NCBI GenBank assembly: GCA_951802115.1
Contig: CATOPL010000001.1
Coordinates: forward strand, 124,001 to 188,000
Direction: 5' to 3'
DNA length: 64,000 bases
DNA from: an uncultured Lachnospiraceae bacterium
GTDB taxonomy: Bacteria > Bacillota > Clostridia > Lachnospirales > Lachnospiraceae
Under the pieces are notes generated by a model. It was given only the letters and a program-made list of their open reading frames with translations, was not told the DNA's origin and did not search any database. This document shows positions 3,885 to 61,074 of this stretch, piece by piece (the first letter of the stretch is position 1; every line of letters begins with the position of its first letter). Both the position numbers and the translations under genes were made by a program.

Positions 3885-3905
3885 ATTGGGTTCCGTAATT
3901 ATATT

Positions 3906-5171: not shown

Positions 5172-5198
5172 AATCATTTCCTCCTCTATATACAATAA

Positions 5199-5231: not shown

Positions 5232-5260
5232 ATGATAAACATTGAAATTCAGTTTGTCAA
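5232..5260 (-). promoter_or_regulatory. Promoter of the Liv operon
   Basis: Minus strand: TTGACA (5255-5260), 17 bases, TATCAT (5232-5237). The -35 is perfect and the -10 matches 5 of 6 bases of the vegetative consensus. It lies 61 bases upstream of the binding-protein ATG. Confidence 0.75.
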
Positions 5261-5304
5261 TTCATTTTTCGACTTTTCCAAATTTTTTGCAGTTTTACGG
5301 GCTT

Positions 5305-6582: not shown

Positions 6583-6601
6583 CTATATAACCTCCAGTCT
6601 C

Positions 6602-6630
6602 AGGATAGCACAAAACACGTTCCTTTTCAA
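6602..6630 (-). promoter_or_regulatory. Promoter of the NlpC/P60 gene
   Basis: Minus strand: TTGAAA (6625-6630), 17 bases, TATCCT (6602-6607), with an extended -10 TG dinucleotide. The ATG lies about 20 nt downstream of the -10. Confidence 0.6.
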
Positions 6631-6784
6631 CTGCTTATTAACCGCTGATGTCAAACGACCGCAGTCAGCCGCTGCCAATTCCATCCGGTCTGCACAGTAA
6701 ACGAAATAAACGCTCCGGCACTGTCACATTTTACAGCCGCCTATTTTAAGCCGAGACAGAAATGACTCGCAGTACCACAAGTAT

Positions 6785-9735: not shown

Positions 9736-9793
9736 ACGGTTCACCTCATTCTGATTTCAAATTGAACTTTCAGTACTTAATACATGTAGTTTA

Positions 9794-10564
9794 TCATCTT
9801 TTCATACAAATATTCCGGGCTTTCTTAATTTCCTGCTGATGATAACGCTCCAGATGTTCTACATCCACATCTAGAGCTCTCAAAATCAGTTCCTGAAACT
9901 CCAGATTCTGCATGGAGCCTTCTCCTGACATCGTTTTCCATAACATATGCCTGCAGCATTGTTTCAGCCTCTGTACGTCAAACACCGTCAGGTCCCCCTT
10001 CTGCATACTTATATGAAGTGCTCCCACTATATCACGTATTACGAAAGATTTCAACGCCTCCTGCCTTTCTTCTGTAGATTCTGCTTCTACCGCAAAACAG
10101 TAGAACAAAAAAGGCAAAAACAGAATCAGTCCATTCTCTTCGAGTTTCCATGCTGAACGGTCGTTAAGAGTAATTTCATAAATCGGCAGAATAATCTGTC
10201 CATGTCCGGCAAATTCCAGTTTGGTACAGTAGACTTCTTTTTTATTTTTACCAAAATAGGTCATCTGCGGGTCCCGAATCTGTACAGCAGAATGTTCTGC
10301 TGCGTCTTCAAACTGAAACAGGCACCCCCTGTCTTCCGCCTGGATCTGAAGGCAATCACCAAAACGGCGCATCTGAAATTCATAACGGTTCGCACAGCCC
10401 ACAGTCACACAGACACTGATAATTCCCGATTTTCTCCACTCCCTGCGTATATATTCTTTTTCACCATACTCTGTCTGAAAAAGACGATTCATCATTCGAA
10501 TCAGGGCATAATCCGAAATCTCGAATATCTTTTTCATCATCCATGCATCGCTGCTCAAATACAC
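9794..10564 (-). CDS. Hypothetical protein, weakly Rpn/PD-(D/E)XK-like
   Basis: 256 residues with no signal peptide or membrane segment. It starts at GTG 10564 behind AAGGAG with 7-nt spacing. I do not recognise it firmly. The N-terminal part (ISDYALIRMMNRLFQTEYGEKE..., then NRYEFQMRR) resembles the start of Rpn/PD-(D/E)XK-like proteins common in Lachnospiraceae, where an E-x-Q element follows a short beta strand, but the usual Asp is not clear. The C-terminal third is helical and basic. It has its own promoter (10612-10640) and stands between HPr and the DUF4358 operon. Confidence 0.6.
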   Translation of the reverse strand: MYLSSDAWMMKKIFEISDYALIRMMNRLFQTEYGEKEYIRREWRKSGIISVCVTVGCANRYEFQMRRFGDCLQIQAEDRGCLFQFEDAAEHSAVQIRDPQMTYFGKNKKEVYCTKLEFAGHGQIILPIYEITLNDRSAWKLEENGLILFLPFLFYCFAVEAESTEERQEALKSFVIRDIVGALHISMQKGDLTVFDVQRLKQCCRHMLWKTMSGEGSMQNLEFQELILRALDVDVEHLERYHQQEIKKARNICMKR

Positions 10565-10611
10565 GTAAGTTCTCCTTTCTCCTACAAACCATGCATACGA
10601 ACGATGTTATT

Positions 10612-10640
10612 ATTATATTCGAATCTGGAAGTTTCGTCAT
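10612..10640 (-). promoter_or_regulatory. Promoter of the 9794-10564 gene
   Basis: Minus strand: ATGACG (10635-10640), 17 bases, TATAAT (10612-10617). The -10 is perfect, the -35 matches 4 of 6. Confidence 0.55.
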
Positions 10641-10721
10641 GGAATAATGACAGATAAAAGACTAATCTTTGATCTTAGACTCCTTCAGCATATAAAATTC
10701 TCTCTGTTCTGTCAAGAAAAA

Positions 10722-10750
10722 CAAAAAAAGACACATCCTATAAGGATGTG
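10722..10750 (-). terminator. Terminator of the HPr gene
   Basis: Minus strand: CACATCC, 5-base loop, GGATGTG, followed by TCTTTTTTTG. The hairpin begins 13 nt after the HPr stop and has the shape of an intrinsic terminator. Confidence 0.78.
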
Positions 10751-10762
10751 CCGCGCCCTGCG

Positions 10763-11026
10763 TTACAAGGCTTTCAGGAAAGTAACAACCCGTTCGAGCG
10801 CCTGTACTTCGTCTTCCCCATAGCATTCCACAATCACTTCGTCGCCGGGACAGACAGGGAATGCAAGCAGGCTCATCAGACTTTTGCAGTTCATCGTATG
10901 CTCGCCGCAGGTCATCATAATATGGGAACTGCATTTATTTGCCACAGTTACCAGCCTTCCTGCCGGACGCAGGTGCAGCCCGTTCTCATTCTTAATCGTT
11001 ACACTTTCTCTGACCACAAAAATCAC
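10763..11026 (-). CDS. HPr-family phosphocarrier protein
   Basis: 87 residues, the normal HPr length. His18 in GLHLRPAG corresponds to the PEP/EI-phosphorylated His15. Ser49 in NCKSLMSLL corresponds to the regulatory Ser46 of Firmicutes; both sites are offset by the same three residues, so both PTS transfer and HPr-kinase control could operate. It starts at GTG 11026 behind GGAG; a second in-frame GTG four codons on is possible. No EI or EII gene is nearby. Flanked by its own terminator and a likely extended -10 promoter, so it is monocistronic. It could be the general HPr or a Crh-like paralogue, although Crh normally lacks the active His. Confidence 0.85.
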   Translation of the reverse strand: MIFVVRESVTIKNENGLHLRPAGRLVTVANKCSSHIMMTCGEHTMNCKSLMSLLAFPVCPGDEVIVECYGEDEVQALERVVTFLKAL

Positions 11027-11130
11027 CCCTCTCCTTCTCTATGTATCGTCTGATCCTCTTACAGCCCCAATTTCTATAAGTCAGATGCAGACCGGCAATC
11101 AGAATGACTTTTACTCATTGCCTACTTTGG

Positions 11131-11136
11131 AGTATA
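11131..11136 (-). promoter_or_regulatory. Extended -10 promoter of the HPr gene
   Basis: Minus strand TGGTATACT: a TG dinucleotide one base before a TATACT hexamer, placed directly after the T-tract of the upstream terminator. No good -35 is visible; the leader would be about 100 nt. Confidence 0.42.
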
Positions 11137-11140
11137 CCAC

Positions 11141-11165
11141 AAAAAAAGGGCTGTATACACAGCCC
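11141..11165 (-). terminator. Terminator of the monosaccharide ABC operon
   Basis: Minus strand: GGGCTGT, GTAT loop, ACAGCCC, then seven T. A strong intrinsic terminator about 75 nt after the permease stop. Confidence 0.87.
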
Positions 11166-11241
11166 CTGTAAAAAATTAACATATTGTTCACATTCGCCCG
11201 GTACATGCGGCTTTGCTGTGCTGAAACAGAATGCTTATCTT

Positions 11242-12435
11242 TTATTTGCCGCTTTTACGGTTCGATACCACATCAAATATGACTGCCACCAGAAGCACGC
11301 CGCCCTTTACCACATACTGCCAGGAATCGCCGATACCCATAATGGACATTCCCATATTGATGACACCCAGAAGGAGTGCTCCGATAATAACTCCCGGAAC
11401 TGTACCACTGCCGCCATAAGCAGAAGCTCCGCCAATAAAACAGGAACCGATCGCATCCATCTCAAAGGAAGTACCAGTAGAACCGGTCACAGAACCTACG
11501 CGCGCCAGACAGAGCAAACCACACAGACCAGCCAGCAGCCCCATATTGGCGTAGGCGATAAAATACACTTTATTGGTATTGATGCCGGAAAGCTGCGTCG
11601 CCTTCTCGTTGCCGCCTACTGCATAAAAATAACGTCCAAATGCAGTCTTGGAGGTAATAAAATGATAAATCAGACAGATCGCCACCACCCACAGAAGCAT
11701 GACGGAGACTCCTTTATACTGACTCAGCAGGTAACAGTATGCCAGAAGAGCTGCCGAAATCAGGGCCGCGCGGCCAAAATCCGCCAGCGCACTGTTCTGA
11801 CGATATCCTTTTTTGGCCTTATTGGCGCGGGAGGAGATCGTATTATAGAAGATGAACACGACAACCAGCGCTCCGATCACCAGCGGAGAAAGGATGCGTG
11901 TGTCGGTATCCAATCCCGGAATCTTGATATAAGCCGTGAAAATATTTAAAAATGTTGCCTCCTGAACAGATACGGTCTTGCTGTCCAGAATCAGACGACC
12001 GAAGCCGCGGAAAATAAACATGCCGCCCAGAGTTGTAATAAACGGCGGTATCCGCACATAGCCGATCCAGTATCCCTGCCATACGCCTGCAGCCACACCG
12101 ATCAGCAGACAGACCAGAATTGTCAGATAAATATTAAAGCCATGGTTGGTGATCATGACCGCAGCCACACCGCCCACCATACAGATTACAGATCCTACGG
12201 ACAGATCAATATTACCGCCGGTCAGGATACACAGAAGCATACCGCATGCCATAACCAGCACATAGCCGTTCTGCAAAAGCAGATTTGACATATTCTGCGC
12301 ATACAGAAGACGTCCATCCGTCAGAAAATAAAACAGAATAAATACGATGACAAGAGCGATAACCATGCTGTATCTGGTCAGAAATTCTCCCAGATTGAAC
12401 GGCGCGCCGCTCTGATTTTCTTTCTTCGTTGACAT
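11242..12435 (-). CDS. mmsB: Monosaccharide ABC transporter permease (MmsB/GguB/XylH type)
   Basis: 397-residue inner-membrane permease of the ribose/xylose/galactose importer class (BPD_transp_2). It shows NGYVLVMACGMLLCILTGGNIDLSVGS and GGNEKATQLSGINTNKVYF, the usual coupling-loop motif, and ends with GGVLLVAVIFDVVSNRKSGK. Long central insertion (about 200-240), as in MmsB/XylH proteins. Third gene of the operon, 21 nt after the ATPase. The family transports aldoses such as xylose, galactose, glucose or arabinose; which one cannot be read here. Confidence 0.9.
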   Translation of the reverse strand: MSTKKENQSGAPFNLGEFLTRYSMVIALVIVFILFYFLTDGRLLYAQNMSNLLLQNGYVLVMACGMLLCILTGGNIDLSVGSVICMVGGVAAVMITNHGFNIYLTILVCLLIGVAAGVWQGYWIGYVRIPPFITTLGGMFIFRGFGRLILDSKTVSVQEATFLNIFTAYIKIPGLDTDTRILSPLVIGALVVVFIFYNTISSRANKAKKGYRQNSALADFGRAALISAALLAYCYLLSQYKGVSVMLLWVVAICLIYHFITSKTAFGRYFYAVGGNEKATQLSGINTNKVYFIAYANMGLLAGLCGLLCLARVGSVTGSTGTSFEMDAIGSCFIGGASAYGGSGTVPGVIIGALLLGVINMGMSIMGIGDSWQYVVKGGVLLVAVIFDVVSNRKSGK

Positions 12436-46774: not shown

Positions 46775-48940
46775 TCATTGATGGCCCTGCAGCAGTTTTT
46801 TCAGAAAATCCGCCGCCCCTCTCAGATCCAGTACATCCCCGATCAGTTCTTTGTACTTCAGTTCTTCCGGCAGAATCTCAAAATATTTTCCTTCCATCCG
46901 CTCTTTTTTCAGCAGATACGCCCGGTTGATCCGACACCCGTTCTCCAGAATGCGTGCACTTTTTCTGCGCAGACTCTGTTCATCCAGTGAAAAAAAACGG
47001 ATACCATACAATAACCCGCGGAGTATCACTCTCTCGCAGGCAATTCCGTTAGAATTCCACAGATAATACAGTGTGCGGATAGTATCTGTCCCCAGAGTCG
47101 GAAAAATCAGCAGATTATTTGTCCCCGGCTCTTTAAACATCAGACGCAGAAGCCCGAACCGTCCGGCATCAGCACGAAGTTCTGCCAGAACACCGGCCGC
47201 CTCTTCATCCAGATACGGATAGTTTTCTTTGGAACTCAGTACCTGATGGAGCTTTTCCATCGTTCTTTGATCCGTGTAAAGAGCTCCTCTGCCGCCAAAA
47301 TGAATGTCTGCTCTGGCCGTTCCCGGCTCCACGTCGATCCGTCTGTGTTTTGTATCGCAGCCCAGAACCGCCCATGTCCTGCCGGCGAGAAAGAAGCTGT
47401 CGCCTGTTTTATATGCGCGGTCCACCATACCGATCTCCTGTTCGTTCCAACGGACCGAAAAAGTTTCTTCCGACTCAAAAACTGCATAAAATTCCAGACT
47501 GCTGCACAGCTTCTCTCCGGCATCGGAAATCCCCAGCGCGCCGTCTTCGTACATTTTTATATAATCTTTTTTCATCATGCAGTGAAGCACCTGCCGAAAT
47601 TCTTCCTGCGTAATATGCCGGAAAATCGACAGTTCCAAAAGCTCCGCCGCCAGCCCGGGCGGGTGCAGACAGCCTTTTTCACAAAGGATGGACAAAGTTT
47701 CATGAATCAGAAGGTTCATAGGATAGCGGGGCAGACTTGTCCTTTCCAGATATTTTTCCCGAAAATAAAGTTCGATCATGGCGATTGTCCGTACCAGACT
47801 CAGATCCAGACTCTCCATCATACCGTCTCCGGTCTTAAAATACCGCAGGTGAAATGCGATGCTGGACTGCATCGTTTTTCTGCCGCTTCTCCCCACGCGC
47901 TGCACCATACTGGAAATACGCAGGGGCTGCGAAGCCTGGATTACCTCATCCAGATCCCCGATGTCGATGCCCAGTTCCAGAGTCAGCGTCGTTCCGGTCA
48001 GGATCGGCCCCCGCCGCTGTTTCATCTGAAGCTCTGTTTCTTCCCTGAGCTCTCTGGAAATACTTCCATGATGAATATAATAGCAGTCCGGAAATCCGGA
48101 CTGCAGTGCAAGGCGTCTGACCTGCGCCACCAGGATCTCGCACTCCCGCCTGGAATTAGTAAAAAGCAGTGTACGCTTTCCCAGCGACTGCTCCAGAATC
48201 TTTTTCACGTATAATACAGGATAATCCACACTTTTAATCCGTGTCGCCGTCACAGAGATCCGATACTGCCGCCGCTCTTCCCGATATTCAATCACTGAGG
48301 CTTTCCGGGAGCTTCCGGCATTCAGATAGGAAAGCGCCTCTTTTGTATCGCCGATGGTGGCGGACAGTCCCAGGCGAACCGGCTCGCGCCGGATGATGCG
48401 CTGAATTCGTTCCAGCAGTGCAAGAAGCTGCAGGCCTCTCTGACTGGCCATAAAATAATGAATTTCGTCAATCACAATATACTGTATCTGTGAAAAAAGG
48501 ATTCTTACATTTTCCGGGTGGCAACAGAGCATCGCTTCCAGCGATTCCGGTGTTGTCTGTACAATTCCGCCCGGCATATGCAAAAGCTTTTCTTTTGCGG
48601 AAACGGCCGCATCCCCGTGCCATTTCGTGATTTTTAAATCCGTTCCTGCAAGCATCTCTTCTATCCGGTAAAACTGATCGTTGATCAGCGCTTTTAAAGG
48701 GCTGATGTACAGAATACCTGCGCTGTCAACCGGATGTTCATAAATTTCCGTCAGCGCCGGCATCAGCGCCGCCTCCGTCTTTCCCATTGCAGTTCCCGCC
48801 GTAAAAAGCAGATTGTTCTCCTTCCTCTGCACCTCTCCGACCGCGCGGATCTGCATGGAGCTTAGATGCTCCCAACCTTTATCATAAATATAATCCTGGA
48901 TAAAATCCGCAAGACGCTCATACGCCTCCTGCTCTGTCAT
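46775..48940 (-). CDS. SF2 helicase, Lhr/BrxHI-like (third gene of the triad)
   Basis: 721 residues. Walker A TAGTAMGKT at 47-55, motif II DEIH at 158-161, motif III SAT at 193-195, a second RecA domain with TLLFTNSRRECEILV near 257-271, TLTLELGIDIGD at 318-329, and motif VI QRVGRSGR at 347-354. The C-terminal 360 residues are unlike a nuclease and probably form the Lhr-type winged helix and beta region. The ATG overlaps the stop of the preceding ATPase gene (ATGA). With that ATPase it recalls the BrxD/BrxHI pair of type II BREX. No BrxC, PglZ or methylase is present, so this is not BREX. Confidence 0.9.
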   Translation of the reverse strand: MTEQEAYERLADFIQDYIYDKGWEHLSSMQIRAVGEVQRKENNLLFTAGTAMGKTEAALMPALTEIYEHPVDSAGILYISPLKALINDQFYRIEEMLAGTDLKITKWHGDAAVSAKEKLLHMPGGIVQTTPESLEAMLCCHPENVRILFSQIQYIVIDEIHYFMASQRGLQLLALLERIQRIIRREPVRLGLSATIGDTKEALSYLNAGSSRKASVIEYREERRQYRISVTATRIKSVDYPVLYVKKILEQSLGKRTLLFTNSRRECEILVAQVRRLALQSGFPDCYYIHHGSISRELREETELQMKQRRGPILTGTTLTLELGIDIGDLDEVIQASQPLRISSMVQRVGRSGRKTMQSSIAFHLRYFKTGDGMMESLDLSLVRTIAMIELYFREKYLERTSLPRYPMNLLIHETLSILCEKGCLHPPGLAAELLELSIFRHITQEEFRQVLHCMMKKDYIKMYEDGALGISDAGEKLCSSLEFYAVFESEETFSVRWNEQEIGMVDRAYKTGDSFFLAGRTWAVLGCDTKHRRIDVEPGTARADIHFGGRGALYTDQRTMEKLHQVLSSKENYPYLDEEAAGVLAELRADAGRFGLLRLMFKEPGTNNLLIFPTLGTDTIRTLYYLWNSNGIACERVILRGLLYGIRFFSLDEQSLRRKSARILENGCRINRAYLLKKERMEGKYFEILPEELKYKELIGDVLDLRGAADFLKKLLQGHQ

Positions 48941-50274
48941 AATGTAAATCCTTCATACTTTCCACCGCCCGCCGATGTCTCATCGTCCGCCGCACCGATC
49001 ATGGAATAGCTCATGGTAATTCCTTTCTGACTGTCTAGAAAGTCCTCCATCCGCTCGCCGGAACGCACTGAACTTTTCAGATCCAGAATCGTCAGGAAAT
49101 CCCGGATAAATTCCCGCGGCGTCAGATGATTCACCGCCGCGATCCGCCGGTATTCATAATCCACAAACCGGATTCTCTCGTCCTCTGAGAAGTATTCCTC
49201 CCGCTCATGGAGCAGCGCATGCATTCCCTCCAGCCGTTCCAGAAGAGCCGCGAATTCTTCCGGCGTCAGCATCGACAGACGGATAATCGGCGCGTGATAA
49301 ATCTCATCTCCCTGCAGCGCCGAATTGGACAGACGGCTTTTCAGCGCCTCATAGGAAAAAATCCCCCGCTTTCGGTCATGGATGGAAGACGGAATACCGC
49401 ACAGAATCACCCCCATATATCTGGCTTCATTTGCATAGCAGTCGTTATAGATGGAAAGCAGTCGTTCAAAATTGTGTTCTCTGGTAACCGAATGTACAAT
49501 ATTCCTTGTAATCTGCGTCAGCTCATCCAGCAATATATAGACACCGCTGTAACCGATCTCTCTGATCAGCACCGCCCAGATCTTCAGATAGGAAAACCAG
49601 TCTCCGTCGCTGATAACCGCATTCACTCCCAATGCCTTTTTTGCCTCTGTGCGGTTGCGGTATTCCCCCCGCATCCACCGCAGTGCATGGTTTTTTCTTT
49701 CGAATTCTTTTAAAAGATACCCGCGGATATATTGCAGAAGCACTTCATAAAAATCAAAACCGTGAGGCAGCGCTTCAATTTTTTTTCTAAGCGCCTGTCC
49801 GGATTCAAGAATGTCCTCCAGAATCTCATCACTTTTTGTAAATCCTTTTTCTCCGGCCCGCTCCTGACATTCATAGAAATACGTATCCAGCACTTCTTCC
49901 AGCGCATTGCCTGACGGACAGGTCCGCGTACTCATGCGGGATAAAAGGCATCGATAAGTCTCCAGCCCTTCCCTCTTCGTTCCGCACAGCTTCCGCTCCG
50001 GCGCCAGCTCACACTCCATCACCACAAAATCCCGAAGCAGCGCTTCATTTTTGATCAGCTTTGCCATAAAGCTTTTTCCGGTTCCGTAGGCCCCCTCCAG
50101 CAGACGAAAAGTGGAATATCCTTCCTCCACCTGCTCCATATCGTGAACAATCGCCGCCACTTCATCTTTTCGGCCTACTGCAATATACTGCAGACCATTA
50201 TCCGGCACCGTACCGCCTGCCAACGCATGGAGTATCGTTTTCGCAATTCTTTTATTTACCCTTTGTTCTATCAC
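48937..50274 (-). CDS. BrxC/BrxD-family (DUF2791) P-loop ATPase (second gene of the triad)
   Basis: 445 residues. Walker A GAYGTGKS at 61-68; Walker B VYILLDE near 245-251 followed by LTQI; CGIPSSIHDRKRGIFSYEALKSRLS is the sensor-like block of DUF2791 proteins; RIAAVNHLTPREFIRDFLTILD is the usual C-terminal helix. No DNA-cutting domain is seen. It starts at GTG 50274 behind GGGAG and overlaps the upstream gene by 23 bases. DUF2791 proteins are found in BREX and other defence islands, often beside an SF2 helicase, where they may load or regulate the helicase (inference). Confidence 0.84.
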   Translation of the reverse strand: MIEQRVNKRIAKTILHALAGGTVPDNGLQYIAVGRKDEVAAIVHDMEQVEEGYSTFRLLEGAYGTGKSFMAKLIKNEALLRDFVVMECELAPERKLCGTKREGLETYRCLLSRMSTRTCPSGNALEEVLDTYFYECQERAGEKGFTKSDEILEDILESGQALRKKIEALPHGFDFYEVLLQYIRGYLLKEFERKNHALRWMRGEYRNRTEAKKALGVNAVISDGDWFSYLKIWAVLIREIGYSGVYILLDELTQITRNIVHSVTREHNFERLLSIYNDCYANEARYMGVILCGIPSSIHDRKRGIFSYEALKSRLSNSALQGDEIYHAPIIRLSMLTPEEFAALLERLEGMHALLHEREEYFSEDERIRFVDYEYRRIAAVNHLTPREFIRDFLTILDLKSSVRSGERMEDFLDSQKGITMSYSMIGAADDETSAGGGKYEGFTL

Positions 50275-51910
50275 GGTATATCTCTCCCAGTATCCTGTCC
50301 GCTTCTCCCATATAGTCTTCCAGTATGCAGATGCTTCCGGTTTCTCTGGTCAGAAGCAGATCTCCGATCATCTCCAGTGCCTTATGATTGATATTTTTCA
50401 TCATAACCGGCTCCGGCATCCGCAGAGTATGAAGGTACGTTTCTGCAGCCGCGCAGTCTCCAACACGCAGATAACGAAGATACGTTTTCTCAATATCATT
50501 GAAAGTACTGGCTGCAGTAACCTCTGCCGCGGCTTTTGAAACTCTTTCCTGCTGTTTTTCAGACACATCCTCTGAATCGTATGCAATCTCGCCTTCGCTC
50601 AGTATCGCCAGAACCTGCTCCGCATCCTCTTTTGCACGTCTTAGCTTTTCCCGGTCGATCACTGTGGGAAAATCTATTTTTTCATAATCCAGATCCCGCT
50701 CAGAAGTTTTTTTTCCCGCACAACGTTTTCTCTTCGGCAGATCAACATTTTCCGCAGTCAAATAATCAAGAACTCCCGATCTGACTGCCTCGTAGAACCG
50801 ATCGTCCCGAAGCACCTCCTTGATCCGGAACGTATCCCGCTCAGGTTCCGCGCCGGCAGAATACGCTTTGTCAAGAATCCGGCTGACAGAACCTTTTCTT
50901 GCCGACACTCTCATATGGCGCCGTATCTGTCTTTCTGTTTCCTGATAGATGACACACAGAAAATCCTGTACGCTTTCATACAGCACGTAATACCGGACTT
51001 TCCAGTAATCAGAAAAATTCTGATATTCATAACACAAATATTTGCTCACCCGGACATCTTTTTGTTCTTTTGTTTCGCCGCACATGACCGGATATTCGCC
51101 AATGTACACAGATTTGTAAAAACCATTGAGGATCACATGCCGGAAATCATACGTTTTCAGTTCTGTCTCCAGCCTTAGGAACACATGCGGAAGTGCTTTC
51201 CATGCGTGAAAAACATGCACTTTGTCTGATATTTTTTCATTTTCTTTCAGCATACGTGCATTTTGCATGACAAATCTGCCGGCAGACGCATATACGCCCT
51301 TTTCCATGTCTTCAAATGCCTGTCCGCTCCAGTCGCGGCCGCTTAATTCCTCCAGACGACCGGTCATCTGCGGCATCAGTTCCTGGAACGTCAGCATAAA
51401 AAGGCTGCAGACTGTATAAAAATACTCCCTGCTTTCGTTGCTGAGTTTCCCTTTTCTGCTCCAGGCGTCCCAGAATGAAAACAGAGCCTCGCAGGCCTCC
51501 TGCGGAGTATCCTGATAGATCAGATTGGCCACTTCTAAAAGATAATATCTGGCATAAAAGACGTCTGACGGTTCTACAATGTCGTTTTGAAAACACCTTA
51601 CCAGCATATAATAGCAGACGATCTGCTCATCCGTCATTTCTTCCAGACATCGGATCTCCTTTGACAGCCGCACATGCGCATCACATTCTGTAATCAACCC
51701 TTTCATATACAGAGCTTCCTCGCGAAACAGCCGAATATCCGCCTGCCCGTCGTCCATATCGTTCAGGGCACGTCCAAAATTCCGCTGACGTTTTAATTTG
51801 ATCACATACCTGCGAAAGGCTTCCACTTTCCGCTGCGGCGTCAGCCGCTGCTCATACATCTTCTGCAGATTCAGAGAATCCTCTGTCCATCTTGTCTCAC
51901 TTTTTTTCAT
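50252..51910 (-). CDS. TerB-N-like protein (first gene of the triad)
   Basis: 552 residues; the frame is open to GTG 51928. ATG 51910 overlaps the YjbR stop (ATGA). The N-terminal part, with DEQIVCYYMLVRCFQ and FYARYYLLEVANLIYQDTPQ, resembles TerB-N domains linked to tellurium-resistance and phage-defence gene sets. The rest is helical and charged with no enzyme motif; residues 420-450 are basic (PKRKRCAGKKTSERD). A TerB-N/ATPase/helicase set has been noted in comparative genomics of Ter-linked systems. I am not sure of the domain call; it rests on pattern only. Confidence 0.6.
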   Translation of the reverse strand: MKKSETRWTEDSLNLQKMYEQRLTPQRKVEAFRRYVIKLKRQRNFGRALNDMDDGQADIRLFREEALYMKGLITECDAHVRLSKEIRCLEEMTDEQIVCYYMLVRCFQNDIVEPSDVFYARYYLLEVANLIYQDTPQEACEALFSFWDAWSRKGKLSNESREYFYTVCSLFMLTFQELMPQMTGRLEELSGRDWSGQAFEDMEKGVYASAGRFVMQNARMLKENEKISDKVHVFHAWKALPHVFLRLETELKTYDFRHVILNGFYKSVYIGEYPVMCGETKEQKDVRVSKYLCYEYQNFSDYWKVRYYVLYESVQDFLCVIYQETERQIRRHMRVSARKGSVSRILDKAYSAGAEPERDTFRIKEVLRDDRFYEAVRSGVLDYLTAENVDLPKRKRCAGKKTSERDLDYEKIDFPTVIDREKLRRAKEDAEQVLAILSEGEIAYDSEDVSEKQQERVSKAAAEVTAASTFNDIEKTYLRYLRVGDCAAAETYLHTLRMPEPVMMKNINHKALEMIGDLLLTRETGSICILEDYMGEADRILGEIYRDRTKGK

Positions 51911-52245
51911 TTCTGCTTTTTCGCGCACAGATCATAACTCTCTGCAATCATCCTGTGGATATCATCTTCCGGAATCGTCCCGTTGAGTATCAAAGAATTC
52001 CAGTGTTTCTTGTTCATGTGATATGCCGGGAGTACCGCCTCATATGCCTGCCTCCACATATCCCTCCACTCAGGATCACATTTCACATTTATCCATATCT
52101 TTTCCTCCCGCTCATATATCCAGGCAAAGATCCGATTCGTGGTCCGAATCCGCATACAGGTCCAGTTGGAATCGTGAAACGGATAATCCTCATAAGTATA
52201 AGGGAAGGAGAGACAATAGGTGATTGCTTGTTTGCGGGTTGTCAT
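51907..52245 (-). CDS. MmcQ/YjbR-family protein
   Basis: 112 residues, full length for the family. RKQAITYCLSFPYTYEDYPF, CMRIRTTNRIFAWIYEREEKIWINVKCDPEW and HMNKKHWNSLILNGTIPEDDI fit the YjbR fold (a MmcQ-type small DNA-binding-like protein of unclear role). AAAGGAC lies before the ATG. It overlaps the triad's first gene by 4 bases and follows the decayed mutT by 26, so it is translated within this transcript. Confidence 0.86.
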   Translation of the reverse strand: MTTRKQAITYCLSFPYTYEDYPFHDSNWTCMRIRTTNRIFAWIYEREEKIWINVKCDPEWRDMWRQAYEAVLPAYHMNKKHWNSLILNGTIPEDDIHRMIAESYDLCAKKQK

Positions 52246-52556: not shown

Positions 52557-53207
52557 TTATTCTCCTTGATTACAGTCACTTGACAGAGGAAATTGGTCAA
52601 AAACAGCCTCCGCCAGCATCCGGTGCCCCTGTACATCCAGATGCAGTCCGTCCGTCTCGCTGACTTTTGTCACTTCTGTCCCATCCAAAAAACCGCACCC
52701 GTACTTTTGAGCCAGCTTTTTATACTCCCGCGCCAGTTCTTTTGACAATTCCACTGAACGCCTGTCAAATTCCGACCCGAAACCGCTTTGTATAACCCGC
52801 TCCGTCATGGCGGCAGGAGCAACCAAAAGTATCCGGAACGAATAGTCTTTTGCTCTTCCTGCCTTTTCAAGAAGCTTTCCCAGCCCTTCTGCAATCTCCT
52901 GCGCCGATAACCCGAACTGTGTCTTGCAGTCGTTACTCCCCAGCATGATAATCAGAAGATCCAGCCGTCTGTTCCGCTCTATGGCGTCCCGGATCCCGTC
53001 CAAACCACATCTGCCAGGTTCCGACGCATCTTCAAATGCCGTCGTCCTGCCGCACAGACCTTCTTCTATTACCTCGTATGCGACGCCCAAAAGCTTCTGA
53101 AGACGCCCGGGCCAACGGGTATGCTGATCGTATCTGCCTCCTCTTCCCGGAATAAAGCCATATGTATTTGAATCTCCGTAACACAAAATTCTGATTTTTT
53201 CCATCAT
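52557..53207 (-). CDS. SGNH/GDSL hydrolase
   Basis: 216 residues, cytoplasmic (no signal peptide). Block I CYGDSNTYG with nucleophile Ser13; block II GLCGRTTAFED; block III GSNDCK; block V DGLHLDVQGH with the Asp-His pair. The family hydrolyses acyl esters; lysophospholipase, arylesterase and sugar deacetylase members exist, so the substrate is open. AGGAG precedes the ATG. It lies 65 nt after jetC. Confidence 0.9.
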   Translation of the reverse strand: MMEKIRILCYGDSNTYGFIPGRGGRYDQHTRWPGRLQKLLGVAYEVIEEGLCGRTTAFEDASEPGRCGLDGIRDAIERNRRLDLLIIMLGSNDCKTQFGLSAQEIAEGLGKLLEKAGRAKDYSFRILLVAPAAMTERVIQSGFGSEFDRRSVELSKELAREYKKLAQKYGCGFLDGTEVTKVSETDGLHLDVQGHRMLAEAVFDQFPLSSDCNQGE

Positions 53208-53272
53208 CTTTTCTCCTGCTGCATTCTTTCAGTCTCTACATTTCCGGACAGAGAATTTTCCTGTGTGCAGGA

Positions 53273-56200
53273 TCAGAAAATCAGCTCCTGCTGCTCCACC
53301 ACCTCAATCTGAGAAACAACCATCGTCTCCGGCTCATCGCCCCGGAGATGTTCCGCCCGCAGATACTGCATCCCGCTTCTTAAGCTGGCCTCAATCAGAT
53401 TCAGTACATAGATATTGTCAAACCGGCTGTAGATGGATTCTCCGCCCAGGCCGGTCAGACAAATGAGCTGGGTATTCGTCTTTTTCGCCATATCCATCAA
53501 AGGTTTCAGAAGATGCGCCGCATTGGTCTGTGCAAACGGATTATCCATCAGCAGTACCTTACCCTCATTCCTGTCGGCAAAAAGATCGCTCTCATCTGTG
53601 CGCATATAATAGAGCAGACTGGACAGAATCACAAACGCCGACAGGAACCCTTCTCCGCCGGAATTTTTTGCCACCTCCGCCCAGGTGATCGGATATTCCC
53701 GCTGAGCCTCGATCTTGTACAGGCGAATCTGCACATTTCCGATACCGATAACCGTATCATACAGATTTCTGGTGGTGAGCTGCGTCCCGAAATATTCCTG
53801 TGCGTTTCCATTCTGCGCCAGAATCTGCAGCCCTTTTCCGGCCACCTCATCAATCATATCCTGCAGCCGCAGACGATAAATATTCTCATTCTCTTCCCAG
53901 CGGGGGAGCTGAATCTTCAGCATCTTTACCGGACGCTCACGCACAGTAATCGTGGAATTTGCATCGATACGGTCCATATTCTGATGAACCTCTTTTATAT
54001 ACTCTTCCAGAAGTTCCACAATCTTCTGCTTTTCCTTTTCCACCAGAGAAATATCTACTTCCAGCTTTTCCATCAGACTTTCATAGGACTGAAGTGTTGT
54101 AGACAGCTGACGCAGGATCTGTTCCGACTCATCCGTCAGTCTCAGCATTGTCTCCAGAGGCTTGCGGTAAAAATCTTCCTGAAAAATCTCCATCCGTACC
54201 ACCCGGTTCAGTTCTTCATAAAGCTTTCCTTTTGCCTCCTGTCGTAACTGCGTGCTTCGGCGGTAGTCCCGAATACAGCCACCCTGAAATCTCCGCAGTT
54301 CTTCTCGGTCCATTTCCGCAAAGTCCTGTTCCCAGATTATCGGTTCTCCAGGCGGAAAATCACTGTATTCCGAGAGCGCAGCCAGATTTTCCTCATATGC
54401 CTGCAGACGTTCATTTAACTTCTCTGACTGTCTCTGGAGTTCCTTTTTCTGATACTCCAGCTCTTTTCTGCGCGCTGCAAAATCCTGATCCTGTATTTCG
54501 TTTTTCGGAAGCGGCGCTTCTTTTCCGCATAATTCCAGTATCCGCCTCAGACAGTCTTTTTTCCGCTGATCGGCAGCCGCAATCTGCCCGGTTACTTCCG
54601 TCAGAAGTCCCTGCTTTTTCTCTGTTTTTTTCCTGCACTCTTCCAGCAGCGATTCCTGATGCAGCTCCTCTTTTGGATTGTAAGCTGTTTTGGCCCAGGC
54701 ATTTGGCTCCAGTCGGTAACGCAGCCTTGAATGTTCCAGAGTTTCCGCAGCTGATTTGTATTTTTTCGCAGCGCGGTTCTCCTGTTCCTCCAGATCACGC
54801 AGTTCCCTGGACAGACTGCCGGTAATTGCCGTATATCTGGCTTCCATCAGTTCTACATCGTCTGCTTCCACAATTATATGTTCATCCGTTTCATCTTCCG
54901 CATATTTTTCGTATTTTTGCTGTGTTTCCTTTAGATGCGTGCTTTTTTTGTCCAGACGATCTGTTTCGCGTTCCAGACTTTTCTGCTGCCTTTCCAGCCT
55001 ATCCATACTTTCCTGCGCCAGTTTCTTCCTCTCTTCCAGACGCCGGATGGCACGCCCGCAGCGCTCCAGCTCCAGACGTTCCTGCTCATACTGCGCATAT
55101 TCCTGGCAAAGTCGTTCCAGATCCTCCTGCCGTCTCTGCAGTCGGAACAGTTCCTTTTCAGAATCCCGCAGCAGTTGCTCCAGCTGTTTCAATTCCTCCA
55201 GAAGCGTATTCTGTTCTTCCCGTCCGGAACGGATTTTCTCCTCTGTATCCTTCAGTTCGTGAGAAAGCGCCTTCAGGCTCTTCGCATTTTCTTCCCAGGC
55301 TTCTCTGCTCACAGCCTGGTTTCTCACCCGCTCCTTCCGTTCAAAAGTTTCATCATATTCTTTTTTCCGCTTACAGACAGCCTCCTGCTTTTTTTGAATC
55401 TGACGCCTTTTCTCTTCTACCAGCAGGCTCAGCTTTTCTTCATTCAGCAGATTTTCATTGAACAACAGGTAAAAATGTACATCGGACAGGTTGATAATAC
55501 CGCCGGACTGTTCAACCGGTTTTGCCTCCAGCTCCTCCCGCACGACAATAGGTACCGGAAATGAGGTACAGACTTCCCCAACATTGCGCACTAGCCTGTC
55601 AAGTTCTTTTCCTGACAGGATCAGCGCATAGGGAAGAAACGGATGACTGCGAACCAGCTTAAGATTCTCTTCTTCTGTATACCCGTTTTTCTGCAGCCAT
55701 TCCATACCGTATATAACAGGCAAACCAAGCTCCAGAAATTCCGCCTCCACTGCTTCCGGCAGTTCCAGCGTCCGTCCTTCCGTAAGCTGCCGGCATTCCT
55801 TCTTTAACTGTTCTTCCTCCCATCTCAGGCTCTGAAGCCGGCTGTCCTGTTCCTGAAGCTTTCTGCCGGAAGCCTGCAGAATCTCCTCTATCTGAAACAG
55901 CGTCTCTTCCGGCAGCCCCAGATACTGAAGCACAATTTTACGGTCTTTGAGCTCCTTCTCATATCCTTCTTTTATCTGCTCCTGCTGTCTTTTAAGCGTT
56001 TCCTTCCGAATCTGCTCCGCATACAGCCCCTGCAGGCTCCGTTCCAGGCTTTTCTGCCGCTCCAGACCGTCTTCCTGCCGCTTTTTCTGCCTCTGCCGGA
56101 TACGGATACAGGTTTCGATCTCTTTCGCTCCGGCTTTTTTCCGGATATCCAGCGTTCCAGGCTCATATTCTCCCAGAATGTTGCGGACAAGCTGCTCTCC

Positions 56201-57685
56201 ATGCATCTGATTGTATTGTCTCTCTTGTCGGTCATAAGATTCCACTTGACTTATCAGCGCTCCCTGTCTGGACGCTTCTTCCCGGAGAGACTGCTCATAG
56301 CTGTTGATCTTTTCTTTTTCCGCCGCCGTCTGTGCCGCCAGCTCACTGCACCGTTCCTGACTGCGCAGAAACACTTCTTCATTTTCCTGAAGCATTTTTT
56401 TGTAATATCTGTACAGCGTTCTGCCCAGTCGATCCCGCTCCGGTTTGAGATCTGCTTCCTCCTGTCTGGACAATGCAATCCGCTGCCGGAGTTCCAAAAG
56501 TTCCATCCGGATTTCCGACACGGTTTCCTGCTGTTTTGCACACGCCAGAAGATGGAGCCCGTGTTCGATCTCCCTCGTCTCTCTGCGCAGTGCATCCTGT
56601 TCCGCTTCGATCATGTCCCGGTTACTCACATGATAGCAAAGCTTTTCTTCCAGCTTATACAATTCTCCTGACAGCTTCTCATATTCGATTCTCGCAATCC
56701 GGTCCACAATTCGCTCGGTGTTTGAGAGAACCTCCTGATACTCTTCCTCAGACGCTCTCCTCAGACGTGTAAATTCCCTGATCAGGCAAGCCAGGAGATG
56801 CATCTGCTCCTTTTCCTTCTCTTCCTCTGCCTGATACTGTTCTGCGAATCCCCGAATCACCTCCGCCTCTTCCCGGAACCGTCGTATCGTATCCCGCCTG
56901 CGGATCTTTACCTGATTGTCCCGATACTGCGCCACATATTTTTCCAGAAGATTCTGGAATTCCTTCATCTGATTCCGCTCCCGGTTCAGCCTGTTCTCCA
57001 CCGCATCCAGAAACCATTTCTCGATCAGTCCTTTTTCATCCCGACAGTCGGAAAACAGTTCCGAAAGACCGGACTCTTTCAGATTGACTTTTTTGATAAT
57101 GGACTCCCACTCCCGGTAGTTAATCTGATACTCCATCAGCTTGTCGAAATACTGCCGTGACTGAGCGGCATTGGCGCAATCATAGCAAAAAAAGCGGAGG
57201 GAACTGTCCTTTTTATAAGCGTCAAACATCTGCCTGCACGACGCAAAATTTTTCAGGACCATTTCCTTCGCCCCTTTTTCCACTACCGGAAGATGATGAA
57301 TATCCTGCAGACATGCTTCCCGGTATTCACTGATGAATGTCACCATATCGAGCACTTCTTCCTGCTCTGTCTCCACATCCTGATTCCTGCGGACCATCAT
57401 CCCGGTCAGAACATATCCGGCTCCCTGATCCAGCGCCCACTCCACCAAAATAAAGGACGGTTTTCCGGTAGTAAAATAACTTTCAAATGCTCTGTCTTTG
57501 GCGTCCCGATAGCGTTTATGGACAAATAGCGCTGTTATCATCTGCACCAGTACCGATTTTCCGCCGCCATTGCGCAGAGACAACAATGTACTCTCTCCGT
57601 GAAAATGGAAAGTCTCATCGCTGATGCGGATCGCGTTGTTATTATAATTGATATTGATCAGCCGGACGGCGTTGATCTTACTCAT
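53273..57685 (-). CDS. jetC: Wadjet type II SMC-like ATPase JetC
   Basis: 1470 residues with ABC half-domains at both ends and very long coiled coils between (about 250-1200). N-terminal Walker A LRNGGGKSV at 38-46; C-terminal signature SGGEG at 1342-1346; Walker B KVLLMDNP at 1376-1383. The residue after the Walker B Asp is Asn, not Glu; relatives with DNPF are common in this family, so it is not a lesion. JetC drives loop extrusion on plasmid DNA in Wadjet systems. The ATG overlaps jetB by 8 bases. Confidence 0.92.
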   Translation of the reverse strand: MSKINAVRLININYNNNAIRISDETFHFHGESTLLSLRNGGGKSVLVQMITALFVHKRYRDAKDRAFESYFTTGKPSFILVEWALDQGAGYVLTGMMVRRNQDVETEQEEVLDMVTFISEYREACLQDIHHLPVVEKGAKEMVLKNFASCRQMFDAYKKDSSLRFFCYDCANAAQSRQYFDKLMEYQINYREWESIIKKVNLKESGLSELFSDCRDEKGLIEKWFLDAVENRLNRERNQMKEFQNLLEKYVAQYRDNQVKIRRRDTIRRFREEAEVIRGFAEQYQAEEEKEKEQMHLLACLIREFTRLRRASEEEYQEVLSNTERIVDRIARIEYEKLSGELYKLEEKLCYHVSNRDMIEAEQDALRRETREIEHGLHLLACAKQQETVSEIRMELLELRQRIALSRQEEADLKPERDRLGRTLYRYYKKMLQENEEVFLRSQERCSELAAQTAAEKEKINSYEQSLREEASRQGALISQVESYDRQERQYNQMHGEQLVRNILGEYEPGTLDIRKKAGAKEIETCIRIRQRQKKRQEDGLERQKSLERSLQGLYAEQIRKETLKRQQEQIKEGYEKELKDRKIVLQYLGLPEETLFQIEEILQASGRKLQEQDSRLQSLRWEEEQLKKECRQLTEGRTLELPEAVEAEFLELGLPVIYGMEWLQKNGYTEEENLKLVRSHPFLPYALILSGKELDRLVRNVGEVCTSFPVPIVVREELEAKPVEQSGGIINLSDVHFYLLFNENLLNEEKLSLLVEEKRRQIQKKQEAVCKRKKEYDETFERKERVRNQAVSREAWEENAKSLKALSHELKDTEEKIRSGREEQNTLLEELKQLEQLLRDSEKELFRLQRRQEDLERLCQEYAQYEQERLELERCGRAIRRLEERKKLAQESMDRLERQQKSLERETDRLDKKSTHLKETQQKYEKYAEDETDEHIIVEADDVELMEARYTAITGSLSRELRDLEEQENRAAKKYKSAAETLEHSRLRYRLEPNAWAKTAYNPKEELHQESLLEECRKKTEKKQGLLTEVTGQIAAADQRKKDCLRRILELCGKEAPLPKNEIQDQDFAARRKELEYQKKELQRQSEKLNERLQAYEENLAALSEYSDFPPGEPIIWEQDFAEMDREELRRFQGGCIRDYRRSTQLRQEAKGKLYEELNRVVRMEIFQEDFYRKPLETMLRLTDESEQILRQLSTTLQSYESLMEKLEVDISLVEKEKQKIVELLEEYIKEVHQNMDRIDANSTITVRERPVKMLKIQLPRWEENENIYRLRLQDMIDEVAGKGLQILAQNGNAQEYFGTQLTTRNLYDTVIGIGNVQIRLYKIEAQREYPITWAEVAKNSGGEGFLSAFVILSSLLYYMRTDESDLFADRNEGKVLLMDNPFAQTNAAHLLKPLMDMAKKTNTQLICLTGLGGESIYSRFDNIYVLNLIEASLRSGMQYLRAEHLRGDEPETMVVSQIEVVEQQELIF

Positions 57686-58394
57686 TGTTCTTTTCCCCCA
57701 GTATTTTAAGGACTCTTACGTAATTGTTCTGGTTCAGAAGATTCCAGTCCATAAAATTATCCAGCTTCTTTGTCGTCTTAATCATTTCATCCTGATCCAC
57801 ATATTCCACCAGCCCCTGTTTCTCCAGAAAGAGCAGAATATAGTGAAGAAAACCTTCTTTCGTTGTCCTCGCCCTGGACCCCCGTTCATCCGACTTCAGA
57901 GCCTCATACGCCTGCATCATGTCTGCAAAAGCGATACCCTGACGTTCTTCCTCCTCCTCATCCATACGCTCAGCTCCCTCTTTCAGGCGGCTGGAGATGC
58001 AGTTTTGCAGTTCTCCGGTACGGATATATTCTCTTGCCTTACTGCTGCTTCCCTGCCCGTCGTAAAATTCCACCAGAAGCGTCAGAATTACAAACTGCGA
58101 CAGATAATAAACCTTATCTGTCGCCCCCGACCGGCAAAGAATGCTTTTCAGCTGTCCTTTGGAAAACCCCAGATAATCATTCTCCTCTTTTGGTATCAGA
58201 TAAATCACATTTCCATACCGTTCAATATTGCTGTCCGCAATCTCTCCCTGAGATTTTACCAGATTCTGCACTTCTTCCTGCTCTGTGTACGCACGGTAAA
58301 GAGACGCTTCTTCTTCCTCTTTCAGCTCGTGATGTTTCAGAAGATAATAAAAGATCTCCTGACTCATCCGGACCACATCCAATTCGTATGCCAT
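57678..58394 (-). CDS. jetB: Wadjet type II small subunit JetB
   Basis: 238 residues from ATG 58394, with GGAGGAG in front; the longer frame from 58421 is unsupported. No enzyme motif; winged-helix-like, as expected for a KITE-type subunit between kleisin and SMC. The order (jetA 5 nt before, jetC overlapping) and the size fit JetB. Relatives in type II systems are listed as DUF6063, to the best of my memory. Confidence 0.84.
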   Translation of the reverse strand: MAYELDVVRMSQEIFYYLLKHHELKEEEEASLYRAYTEQEEVQNLVKSQGEIADSNIERYGNVIYLIPKEENDYLGFSKGQLKSILCRSGATDKVYYLSQFVILTLLVEFYDGQGSSSKAREYIRTGELQNCISSRLKEGAERMDEEEEERQGIAFADMMQAYEALKSDERGSRARTTKEGFLHYILLFLEKQGLVEYVDQDEMIKTTKKLDNFMDWNLLNQNNYVRVLKILGEKNNE

Positions 58395-58399
58395 AATCG

Positions 58400-60019
58400 T
58401 TACTCCTCCCTGACTGCCCAAAGCCGTACATTGGAACAGCAGATAGAACGAACCCCGCCAGTTTCATCCGGGATCCCCGGAAATACAACGGTTTTCCCGT
58501 CCTCCACCCGGACTGCGCGGACCCGCACAATCCGTTTTTTCCCTGCATCCGTTTCCGCACCTGCCAGTTTCAGGAGCATCTCGTTTAACTGAAAGTCTTC
58601 CGGATTATCCTGAATATACTCGCAGCGTTCCTTTTGAAGCGCTGTCAGATCAATCTCCCGGCTCTTGATCAGCTCTACCATAACCTCTTTAAAAATCTCC
58701 ACATTCGGGATCAGCTCCCTGCGCTCCTCTTCTTCCATTCGTTCATTCAGCTCCAGAAGAGAGATTCCTTCTTTCCCCGATGCATGGCGGAGCAGGCAGC
58801 CAAGACTGCTCTCATATTTCTTAAGTTTCTCCTGACGGATCCTGTCTTTTTCCCGCTTCCAGCTCTCCTCATCAAAATCCAGCTCTTCTTCGCTGTCTGC
58901 CTCTGTCTTTCTGCGAGCCGGTCGCTGAAGCTGAAAAGCTTTATTCAGGTTGTAAGCTTTATCCACATCCTGATTAAACAAAGGACGCAGAAAATAATCC
59001 AGTCTTGTAAGCGTGTCCGCATCCTTCAGCACCTTATCGTACAATCCGGTCCGAAGCGGGAATCTCTGAATCAATGACATCTGTGAGAGCTGTTCCAGCT
59101 CCCTGGTATAGAGGGATTTAAGATCAAAATGACTGCTTAATATCTTCTGATGCTCATCAATCGTCCGGGTCAGATAATTCTCAATCTCCCGCAGATAGCC
59201 GAGCTTCTCTTTCTCTTTGGACTGAAGCTGTTGCACATTGATATTTCGTTCCTCCAGTTCTCTGGCCCGGCTCTTAACCATTTCCCGGTAATCCTGAAAT
59301 TTCTGCCGGGTGTTCTGAATCGTATCCAGGTTCTCCAGAAGAATTGTCTCATAATCCCGCACGGAGTAGCTCAGAGCATTCCTGCGGATCTTTCCGCAGG
59401 CATCCTGAATCTTCTGAAGCTGAACACGCAGCAGATTAAAGACATTTTTAATCTCATCCACAGCCTTGTCATAACTCTGTTTTTCCAGATGCATCTGAAA
59501 AATCATTTCGTGGATCGTCAGTTTCATATTATTTTCAATTTCCAGAGTAGAGAGCAGCAGATTATATCCATCATCGGTCAGATAATAAGACGTGCGCCGG
59601 AATTCCTGGTCCACATAGACAATGCGGTTAGCCACATAACTGACATGCATATTTCGATATTCATTTTCTTCGAAGTCGAAACCTTCAAAGTACATTGCTT
59701 TTCCCTCATTGGAGAGAATAACATTGACAATAAAATCACCCAGCTGTTTGCACTCGTCATAATTAATGCTTTTATGAAAATGCTGCATATTGACCGTATC
59801 GATATAAGCGCCGATATCATCCATCGTACAGCGTTCTTCTTTGAGCGACTGCTCCATAATATAGAGAAGAACCGCAAAAATAAGATTGATCTGTTCCGCA
59901 CCGGAAGAAAAACCATACTGTTTCCAGGTAGTCTTCTGGATGCTGTTCTGGATCAGCATAAAATGAAGCCCGACGCTCTTCATGCGACGGGGAAAATGTT
60001 TCAGAAAATCATATTGCAT
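58400..60019 (-). CDS. jetA: Wadjet type II kleisin-like subunit JetA
   Basis: 539 residues. A winged-helix N-terminal part (1-150), a coiled coil (about 190-300), an acidic linker (about 373-390) and a winged-helix C-terminus match the MukF/kleisin plan of JetA; type II forms carry the domain I remember as DUF5716. GGAAGGA before the ATG. It starts 62 nt after jetD. JetA bridges the JetC heads and the DNA. Confidence 0.87.
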   Translation of the reverse strand: MQYDFLKHFPRRMKSVGLHFMLIQNSIQKTTWKQYGFSSGAEQINLIFAVLLYIMEQSLKEERCTMDDIGAYIDTVNMQHFHKSINYDECKQLGDFIVNVILSNEGKAMYFEGFDFEENEYRNMHVSYVANRIVYVDQEFRRTSYYLTDDGYNLLLSTLEIENNMKLTIHEMIFQMHLEKQSYDKAVDEIKNVFNLLRVQLQKIQDACGKIRRNALSYSVRDYETILLENLDTIQNTRQKFQDYREMVKSRARELEERNINVQQLQSKEKEKLGYLREIENYLTRTIDEHQKILSSHFDLKSLYTRELEQLSQMSLIQRFPLRTGLYDKVLKDADTLTRLDYFLRPLFNQDVDKAYNLNKAFQLQRPARRKTEADSEEELDFDEESWKREKDRIRQEKLKKYESSLGCLLRHASGKEGISLLELNERMEEEERRELIPNVEIFKEVMVELIKSREIDLTALQKERCEYIQDNPEDFQLNEMLLKLAGAETDAGKKRIVRVRAVRVEDGKTVVFPGIPDETGGVRSICCSNVRLWAVREE

Positions 60020-60081
60020 GGAATATCCTTCCTGCTGCTTTCAGCATCTGTTTCCGGACAGAACTGGATTCTGTAAATATT

Positions 60082-61074
60082 TTATTCATCACTGCAAAAA
60101 TCCGTTGCGTTTAAAATTTCCTGCGGGATGTATGTTCCTTTTTGCAGAATCTGTCTCATTTCTGCCGATATCTCATCCGGAAAATATTGAAAAAACATTT
60201 TTTCAATATTTCGATTCTGCCTGTCTTTCATATCCGGCAGACTCTTTACCCGGACTGCTTTTTTTAGCATGGCCTCATAGGCCGGACAAAACGGTCGAAT
60301 CTGACGCCTAGGAGCGCACAGCCTCATCAGATTTTCCCAGATTCCGATGCCCTCATAGTCCAGATCTCCAAAATACCAGATCTCATTTTGGGAATCCGTC
60401 ATATAAGGCTCCACACAGAGGTCAAAATCCCGAAAAGAACGAAGAATCCCTTTGCCGGCGCCGTAGATCAGCGTCCCTGTCTGCATACCGAAGATTGTTT
60501 TCCCCCCGTTCAGAAGATGGCGGCGCATACTGTAAAATGTATCTTTATTTTCCAGAATCAACAGATTCTGCGGAACCTTTCTGGTGTGAGAATAGTATGA
60601 CAGCGGCTCTGTAGTCTCATAGACGTTCAGTTCTTCCAGAGAAATCCCGCAGTGTTTGAGAATTTTCTTTCCCTGTTCTTTCGTCAAAAACTTCTCCCTG
60701 CCCCAGATTTCAAAGCTGCGCTCGTTCACCGACTGCGGAATATCAGAGCGCCCCTTCTTTTCCCGAAGCCAGGTATTCAGCATCTGTACCCACGCCCGTT
60801 CCTGACGGTAAACCTCCAGATGAGACAGATAATAATCAATCGAAATTGACGGAACAAGGAAAAACCTCAGTTCCTCCAAAAGCGGACCTGTTTCTTTCTT
60901 TTCTTCCGTGAGCCAGTATTCCCGGTAAAGCGCCGGTTTTTTACCATTTTTCCCGGATGCCTTCAAAGGCTTGATCCTGCCCGCTTCCAGCAGTTCTGTA
61001 ATATACTTGTATTGCTGCCCATACTCCTGCTGCTGTTTCGCCGCAAGAAGAGCTTCCAGAGTGATGCGCTTCAT
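60082..61074 (-). CDS. jetD: Wadjet nuclease subunit JetD (Toprim)
   Basis: 330 residues. The N-terminal half (1-165) is the DNA-sensing arm; the C-terminal half is a Toprim domain with Glu175 in LLILENKDTF and the DLD pair at 237-239 in YFGDLDYEGIGIW. These residues bind the metal ions that let JetD cut closed-circular plasmid DNA. First gene of the operon, right after the promoter at 61149-61177; I expected the gene last, as in the usual A-B-C-D order. Confidence 0.9.
   Translation of the reverse strand: MKRITLEALLAAKQQQEYGQQYKYITELLEAGRIKPLKASGKNGKKPALYREYWLTEEKKETGPLLEELRFFLVPSISIDYYLSHLEVYRQERAWVQMLNTWLREKKGRSDIPQSVNERSFEIWGREKFLTKEQGKKILKHCGISLEELNVYETTEPLSYYSHTRKVPQNLLILENKDTFYSMRRHLLNGGKTIFGMQTGTLIYGAGKGILRSFRDFDLCVEPYMTDSQNEIWYFGDLDYEGIGIWENLMRLCAPRRQIRPFCPAYEAMLKKAVRVKSLPDMKDRQNRNIEKMFFQYFPDEISAEMRQILQKGTYIPQEILNATDFCSDE

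Follow-up and report, generated by a model that had tools for sequence, protein, structure and literature searches.

Three overlapping genes on the minus strand of a 64,000-nucleotide stretch from an uncultured Lachnospiraceae bacterium (contig CATOPL010000001.1; the whole stretch is called the window below) almost certainly encode SngA, SngB and SngC of Shango, a published anti-phage system reportedly the subject of a study by Millman in 2022. PADLOC names all three proteins: its SngA model gives 53.9 bits on the first and is the sole PADLOC match there, the ATPase reaches 413 bits with SngB versus 137 with BrxD, and the helicase 612.8 bits with SngC versus 388 with BrxHI. The layout is that of Shango, with SngA, SngB and SngC adjacent and co-directional, and its constituents are each present: an ATPase with intact Walker motifs, a DEAD/DEAH helicase and a TerB-family protein. 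The window triad is thus alike in all three proteins, in A–B–C order, in its tight overlaps and in its best PADLOC models; it differs in a SngA that scores only 54 bits, an undetected TerB core and a separate yjbR gene that overlaps sngA. The initial annotation had described a single module of three genes overlapping by 4 and 23 bp, formed by a TerB-N-type protein, a BrxC/BrxD-family ATPase and an Lhr/BrxHI-like helicase with no visible nuclease, and all of this is borne out at those positions by the results below. Its further proposal, a defence module not yet characterised, was rejected because PADLOC names all three proteins as a system already described under another name.

In Pseudomonas aeruginosa PA14, Shango comprises a TerB-like protein, an ATPase and a DEAD/DEAH helicase; it cuts plating 10–100-fold for many phages, though not all, and plaques of several are smaller or less clear (Johnson et al. 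2023, PMC10250203, which also cites Shango in E. coli). No description of the Shango mechanism was found in the literature searched, which included passages of PMC10250203, PMC12278908, PMC10952713, PMC12839542 and PMC12926258. A 2026 review (PMC12926258) lists Shango under unknown mechanism, but in a grouped table row that also includes Hachiman and Wadjet, which makes this weak evidence.

Operon structure, conservation and divergence

The junctions, read in sequence, show overlaps of 23 bp between sngA and sngB and 4 bp between sngB and sngC (coordinates in Table 1). Two starts are available for sngA: GTG 51928, giving a 22-bp overlap with yjbR, and ATG 51910, giving a 4-bp overlap. The latter meets the yjbR stop codon as ATGA, the same 4-bp overlap as at the sngB/sngC junction, and we infer it to be the likelier start. 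The initial annotation had ended the triad at 51910, which is indeed an ATG in sngA, although the open reading frame runs on to GTG 51928. With yjbR, a gene that the initial annotation had missed, the unit plausibly runs yjbR–sngA–sngB–sngC.

Table 1. Coordinates of the Shango, yjbR and Wadjet genes in the window
Gene	Position	Strand	Length (aa)	Assignment
sngA	50252-51928	-	558 (counted from GTG)	Divergent TerB_N/TerB_C protein
sngB	48937-50274	-	445	ATPase, BrxC/BrxD family
sngC	46775-48940	-	721	SF2 DEAD/DEAH helicase, BrxHI/Lhr kind
yjbR	51907-52245	-	112	MmcQ/YjbR (PF04237), Pfam E 1.1e-31; directly upstream of and overlapping sngA
JetD	60082-61074	-		PADLOC JetD3, 419 bits
JetA	58400-60019	-		PADLOC JetA3
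JetB	57678-58421	-		PADLOC JetB3
JetC	53273-57685	-		PADLOC JetC3

The three genes are also neighbours elsewhere, so their adjacency in the window is not due to chance. Among 80 loci from other genomes (the best 80 of 579 confirmed relatives from one genome scan), 69 have SngA ending ≤1.5 kb before SngB and SngC starting ≤1.5 kb after it. The remaining 11 comprise six with A–B and no adjacent C, three whose contig ends after SngB, one whose contig is missing before SngB, and L185, interrupted on both sides; the flanks fetched for L149, L162 and L167 yielded no SngC. Eight SngA matches in this set are shorter than 470 aa, so that some are fragments. A conserved fourth gene between SngB and SngC was considered and rejected, the interrupting genes in L119, L181, L184 and L185 all being different; L184 holds three genes there (3783-6813), one of them DNA methyltransferase-like by a DPPY motif read by eye. 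Closer to the window, 20 loci of the same family or genus were picked because they matched SngA or SngB: an open reading frame of >250 aa lies directly upstream of SngB in 18 (L082 and L098 lack one by that filter), and SngC is present in 19, the last locus ending inside SngB. Outside those 20, L011 has a broken SngC.

The ATPase and helicase motifs are intact. SngB is the single match in the genome to Pfam PF10923 (BrxC_BrxD, named for BrxC and BrxD), at 386.8 bits, with Walker A (G61-x-Y-G-T-G-K67-S68) and Walker B (D250-E251) preserved and, T65 excepted, invariant in 12 aligned sequences; a sequence search of solved structures with SngB gave no match at E<=0.01. SngC matches the Pfam models DEAD and Helicase_C above cut-off and WH_Lhr below it, and retains motif I GKT (K54), DEIH 158-161, SAT 193-195 and QRVGRSGR 347-354, most residues of motif I, DEIH, SAT and QRxGRxGR being invariant across 10 aligned sequences. 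Its closest solved relatives by sequence are 5v9x and 7lhl (titled ATP-dependent DNA helicase), which we take to be Lhr proteins, and YprA. Published work places SngC with BrxHI, DruE and DpdJ in a potentially distinct helicase clade defined by defence (PMC12278908). No nuclease domain was matched in the window triad.

Judged by sequence, the window triad belongs to a divergent Shango lineage, new here. Window SngB is 92 (over 322 aa only), 80 and 77% identical to that of its congeners, 37-41% to eight other family loci, and <=45% to the best 80 of the 579 relatives from elsewhere. In a SngB tree, 30 Shango rows including the window clade split from the BREX locus L219 and from L220, a similar pair with a SAP-domain protein (100/99). 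The SngC tree sets the window clade on a long stem inside a 25-row Shango group (100/99), with the divergent Shango rows L221, L226 and L230 outside that group in a placement that is not firm. In a quick tree of 88 SngC rows the three window-clade rows and 80 others make up a group of 83 (0.956), the clade standing next to the others and within no subgroup; the trees differ on its exact position, and their long branches were flagged.

The distribution is patchy. Window-type SngA occurs in 4 of 17 genus genomes, the 397 family genomes yield 10 SngA matches, nine of them weak, and among 120 family genomes SngB is matched in 17 (at full length in 14). The window has the triad between yjbR and a dihydrouridine-synthase (Dus) gene; in the congener G132, which has no SngA match, these two genes (79 and 66% identical) adjoin, 7 nt apart when counted from the aligned ATG. 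The triad may have been gained in some congeners or lost from others. SngB-like sequences, Shango and BREX together, are found on 691 of 72,556 plasmid records, and window SngB had no match at E<=1e-5 in 50,697 phage records. Three plasmid loci that were opened each carry an annotated TerB-N protein, an ATP-binding protein and a helicase in a row, with transposase genes beside two of the three.

SngA and the YjbR domain

The Pfam scan returned no match for window SngA, and its assignment as a TerB-N-type protein is right on two grounds: TerB_C lies above cut-off in all three congener orthologues, and a four-sequence window-clade profile aligns by hhalign with 20 ordinary SngA over columns 42-560 (99.2%, E 9.8e-20). 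Across 97 SngA scanned by Pfam (40 + 57), TerB_N is found in 93, TerB_C in 95 and the TerB core in one (L230), so SngA is a TerB_N/TerB_C protein that seldom carries the core. PF05099, the core model, is present in one of three plasmid-borne SngA (L238) and had no match in window SngA, where a missing Pfam match may still leave the fold present; the core may not be a defining Shango feature. The C-terminus, residues about 474-551, is predicted to be winged-helix-like. Searching solved structures by sequence with SngA gave two matches, at chance level, and Foldseek with the SngA model gave none at E<=0.001; the 50 structure matches listed include no TerB structure, which does not exclude that fold.

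SngA is also the least conserved of the three proteins. Across 97 loci, 3571 pairs have SngB identity >=60%, and all three proteins are comparable in 2261; SngA identity is below that of SngB in 2260 of these and below that of SngC in 2260, the sole exception being one identical pair (L152/L086). Where SngB is 90-98% identical (27 pairs), mean identity is 91.8% for SngB, 89.1% for SngC and 65.4% for SngA. Linkers and alignment error lower the SngA figures, and pairs of common ancestry are not independent, but the direction is uniform. Between the window and its congeners the values are 62, 51 and 47% for SngA, against 92, 80 and 77% for SngB and 73 and 70% for SngC. Such variability fits a part exposed to phage variation.

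The N-terminus of SngA takes several forms. L084 encodes an 889-aa SngA (9552-12221) in which the first 300 residues resemble an Rv2578c-type radical SAM model, scoring below its cut-off, radical SAM and TerB_N lying in one open frame as a fusion or an assembly artefact. In L226 (11024-13003) SngA has an N-terminal TM2 membrane domain, from which some Shango variants may be membrane-anchored, and the 1431-aa SngA of L232 (5096-9391) bears an N-terminal extension of ~900 residues with no Pfam match at E<=0.01.

In many SngA the N-terminal domain is of the YjbR/MmcQ "double-wing" kind. It is fused to SngA in 36 of the 110 loci, and the search profile had itself been built with 20 of these. Pfam YjbR is matched in 9 of 97 whole SngA at E<=0.01, as 4 of 40 (best 8.1e-6) plus 5 of 57 (best 3.3e-4); isolated N-terminal domains match in 17 of 20 cases at E<=1 (best 6e-7), the one match of this kind shown having 25.6 bits, under the Pfam cut-off of 30.1. 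A profile of 20 SngA N-termini finds PDB 2kfp/3h9x (PSPTO_3016) at E 8e-13, and aligns by hhalign with the genus yjbR profile at 93.9% (E 1.5e-7). A narrow hidden Markov model (HMM) built from the genus genes missed the SngA N-termini (best E 0.14), which later profiles matched. On the 88-row SngC tree (35 rows fused), every fused row belongs to a single 42-row clade with support 1.0, which includes seven unfused rows and from which the window is absent; the fusion requires seven changes, whereas shuffling gives a mean of 27.4 and never fewer than 21. The seven unfused rows in that clade are L121, L122, L086/L152 (identical), L097, L168 and L182, and several start near the usual end of the YjbR domain, which suggests secondary loss or trimming.

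Of the 110 loci, 102 of them with >=400 bp of upstream sequence, two, both congeners (L079, L081), likewise have a stand-alone YjbR directly upstream of sngA; the other 108 do not. Counted from the nearest ATG, yjbR and sngA overlap by 4 bp and by 14 bp in two of the three genomes and stand 7 nt apart in the other. One and the same domain is met at this end of SngA in two ways, as a fusion or as a separate gene, and yjbR is a possible fourth component of Shango. A YjbR–TerB fusion is already in print (PMC7641849), and no paper connecting Shango with YjbR was found in the literature searched. A stronger version is doubtful: YjbR would be a true, DNA-recognising fourth subunit, fused once in one large clade and independently recruited as a translationally coupled gene in the window lineage, and swapping or diversifying that end of SngA would set which DNA the loader and helicase attack. 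Two facts weigh against giving yjbR such a role. The genus gene is an ordinary stand-alone family member, present in congeners that lack Shango, and the triad may just happen to have inserted behind it. Nor are the three cases of an upstream yjbR separate events, as they share one ancestry.

Division of labour and alternative readings

We tentatively propose, from this comparative analysis, that SngA recognises, SngB loads and SngC blocks DNA. SngA would be the recognition part, its winged-helix-like C-terminus and YjbR module (the latter fused or, in the window, encoded just upstream) binding invading or replicating phage DNA. SngB, as an oligomerising loader, would be recruited and would load SngC, which would translocate on the DNA and strip bound proteins or unwind the duplex, stalling phage replication. 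Degradation of DNA, if any, would fall to host nucleases, because no nuclease domain was matched in the set. For BREX, published work suggests that BrxD may assist in loading BrxHI onto DNA or in activating it there, much as a replicative helicase loader does (PMC12839542, whose main text contains neither the word Shango nor TerB). With SngB and SngC homologous to BrxD and BrxHI, and a variable SngA associated with a DNA-binding type of module, recognition followed by loading and translocation is the simplest reading, although every step beyond the homologous pair is inferred.

An unlikely rival is a sensor-triggered abortive response, in which SngC and SngB would survey DNA as HamB does in Hachiman and SngA would be an effector, released or activated to kill or arrest the cell. 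SngC does group with other defence helicases (PMC12278908), and the changing N-terminal modules of SngA (YjbR, the TM2 domain, radical SAM) can be read as swappable effectors. YjbR, however, is a DNA-binding type of fold and no known toxin; window SngA lacks an effector-named PADLOC match and any Pfam match, which is weak evidence in both directions. Hachiman (HamAB) shares a central SF2 defence helicase with the triad (PMC12278908), and no HamA-like nuclease was matched in the latter; HamB is grouped with Ski2 helicases and SngC with BrxHI, DruE and DpdJ (PMC12278908), BrxHI itself being called Ski2-like in PMC12839542. A resident housekeeping or DNA-repair module, an Lhr-like repair helicase with its loader, is less probable still. 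It would suit a triad set among ordinary chromosomal genes (Dus by Pfam, xylulokinase-like and rRNA-methyltransferase-like genes by eye), with yjbR upstream in the window and two congeners. Against it stand the patchy occurrence of SngA and SngB within genus and family, the yjbR and Dus neighbours of G132 that have no triad between them, the transposase genes beside two of the three plasmid triads opened, and the block of phages by relatives (PMC10250203).

Two further readings turn on known systems. A decayed type II BREX that kept only the BrxD–BrxHI pair would be in line with the homology of SngB and SngC to these two proteins. The order of the pair, too, is shared with the single BREX locus examined (L219, with PglZ beside it). 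We rejected such a remnant as highly improbable: PglZ (PF08665) has no match in the whole assembly (93.6% complete), in agreement with the initial annotation of a pair without PglZ; the partner is a TerB_N/TerB_C protein, kept next to the pair across genomes; SngB scores 135.3 bits on the NCBIfam BrxD equivalog, whose cut-off is 350; and the trees group the window with Shango, apart from L219. The other concerns the Wadjet type III operon at 53273-61074 on the minus strand, in which PADLOC matches JetD, JetA, JetB and JetC, so that the initial annotation was right to call it complete. A joint system, with Shango feeding DNA to the plasmid-cleaving complex, would account for sngA and JetC lying 1.3 kb apart on one strand and for the single contig of G123 that carries JetDABC–GDSL, 5.8 kb, then yjbR–SngABC. 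It is very unlikely nonetheless: JetC occurs in G131 and G132, both without a SngA match, triad and Wadjet are on different contigs in G122, and only 1 of 100 Shango loci (the congener L079) has Jet genes nearby in a search with the window's four Jet proteins, which would miss other Wadjet types. A functional link is unsupported; Wadjet is a separate system, and its proximity to the triad looks incidental.

The surroundings of these systems gave some observations of their own. The order JetD–A–B–C plus a GDSL hydrolase gene (52557-61074 in the window) is kept in G123 and G132, while G131 has JetABC–GDSL–yjbR on a contig that begins there; the fetched stretch of G122 shows no GDSL match after JetC, one lying upstream of the triad instead. 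At L220 (7248-13596) a BrxD/BrxHI-like pair has a 512-aa SAP-domain protein in the position of SngA and an HD-domain protein downstream, with no SngA profile match there and neither TerB nor PglZ by Pfam in three neighbours; the pair may serve as a portable cassette in yet another system.

What is new here is the divergent lineage, together with two useful clues to mechanism: SngA as the fast-changing part, and its association with YjbR. Shango is found in many genomes, and comparing this locus with its relatives yields a concrete proposal, open to test, of how its proteins divide the work. If true, recognition by SngA, loading by SngB and DNA block by SngC would make the BrxD–BrxHI pair a portable helicase-loading cassette and so account for its recurrence in different systems.

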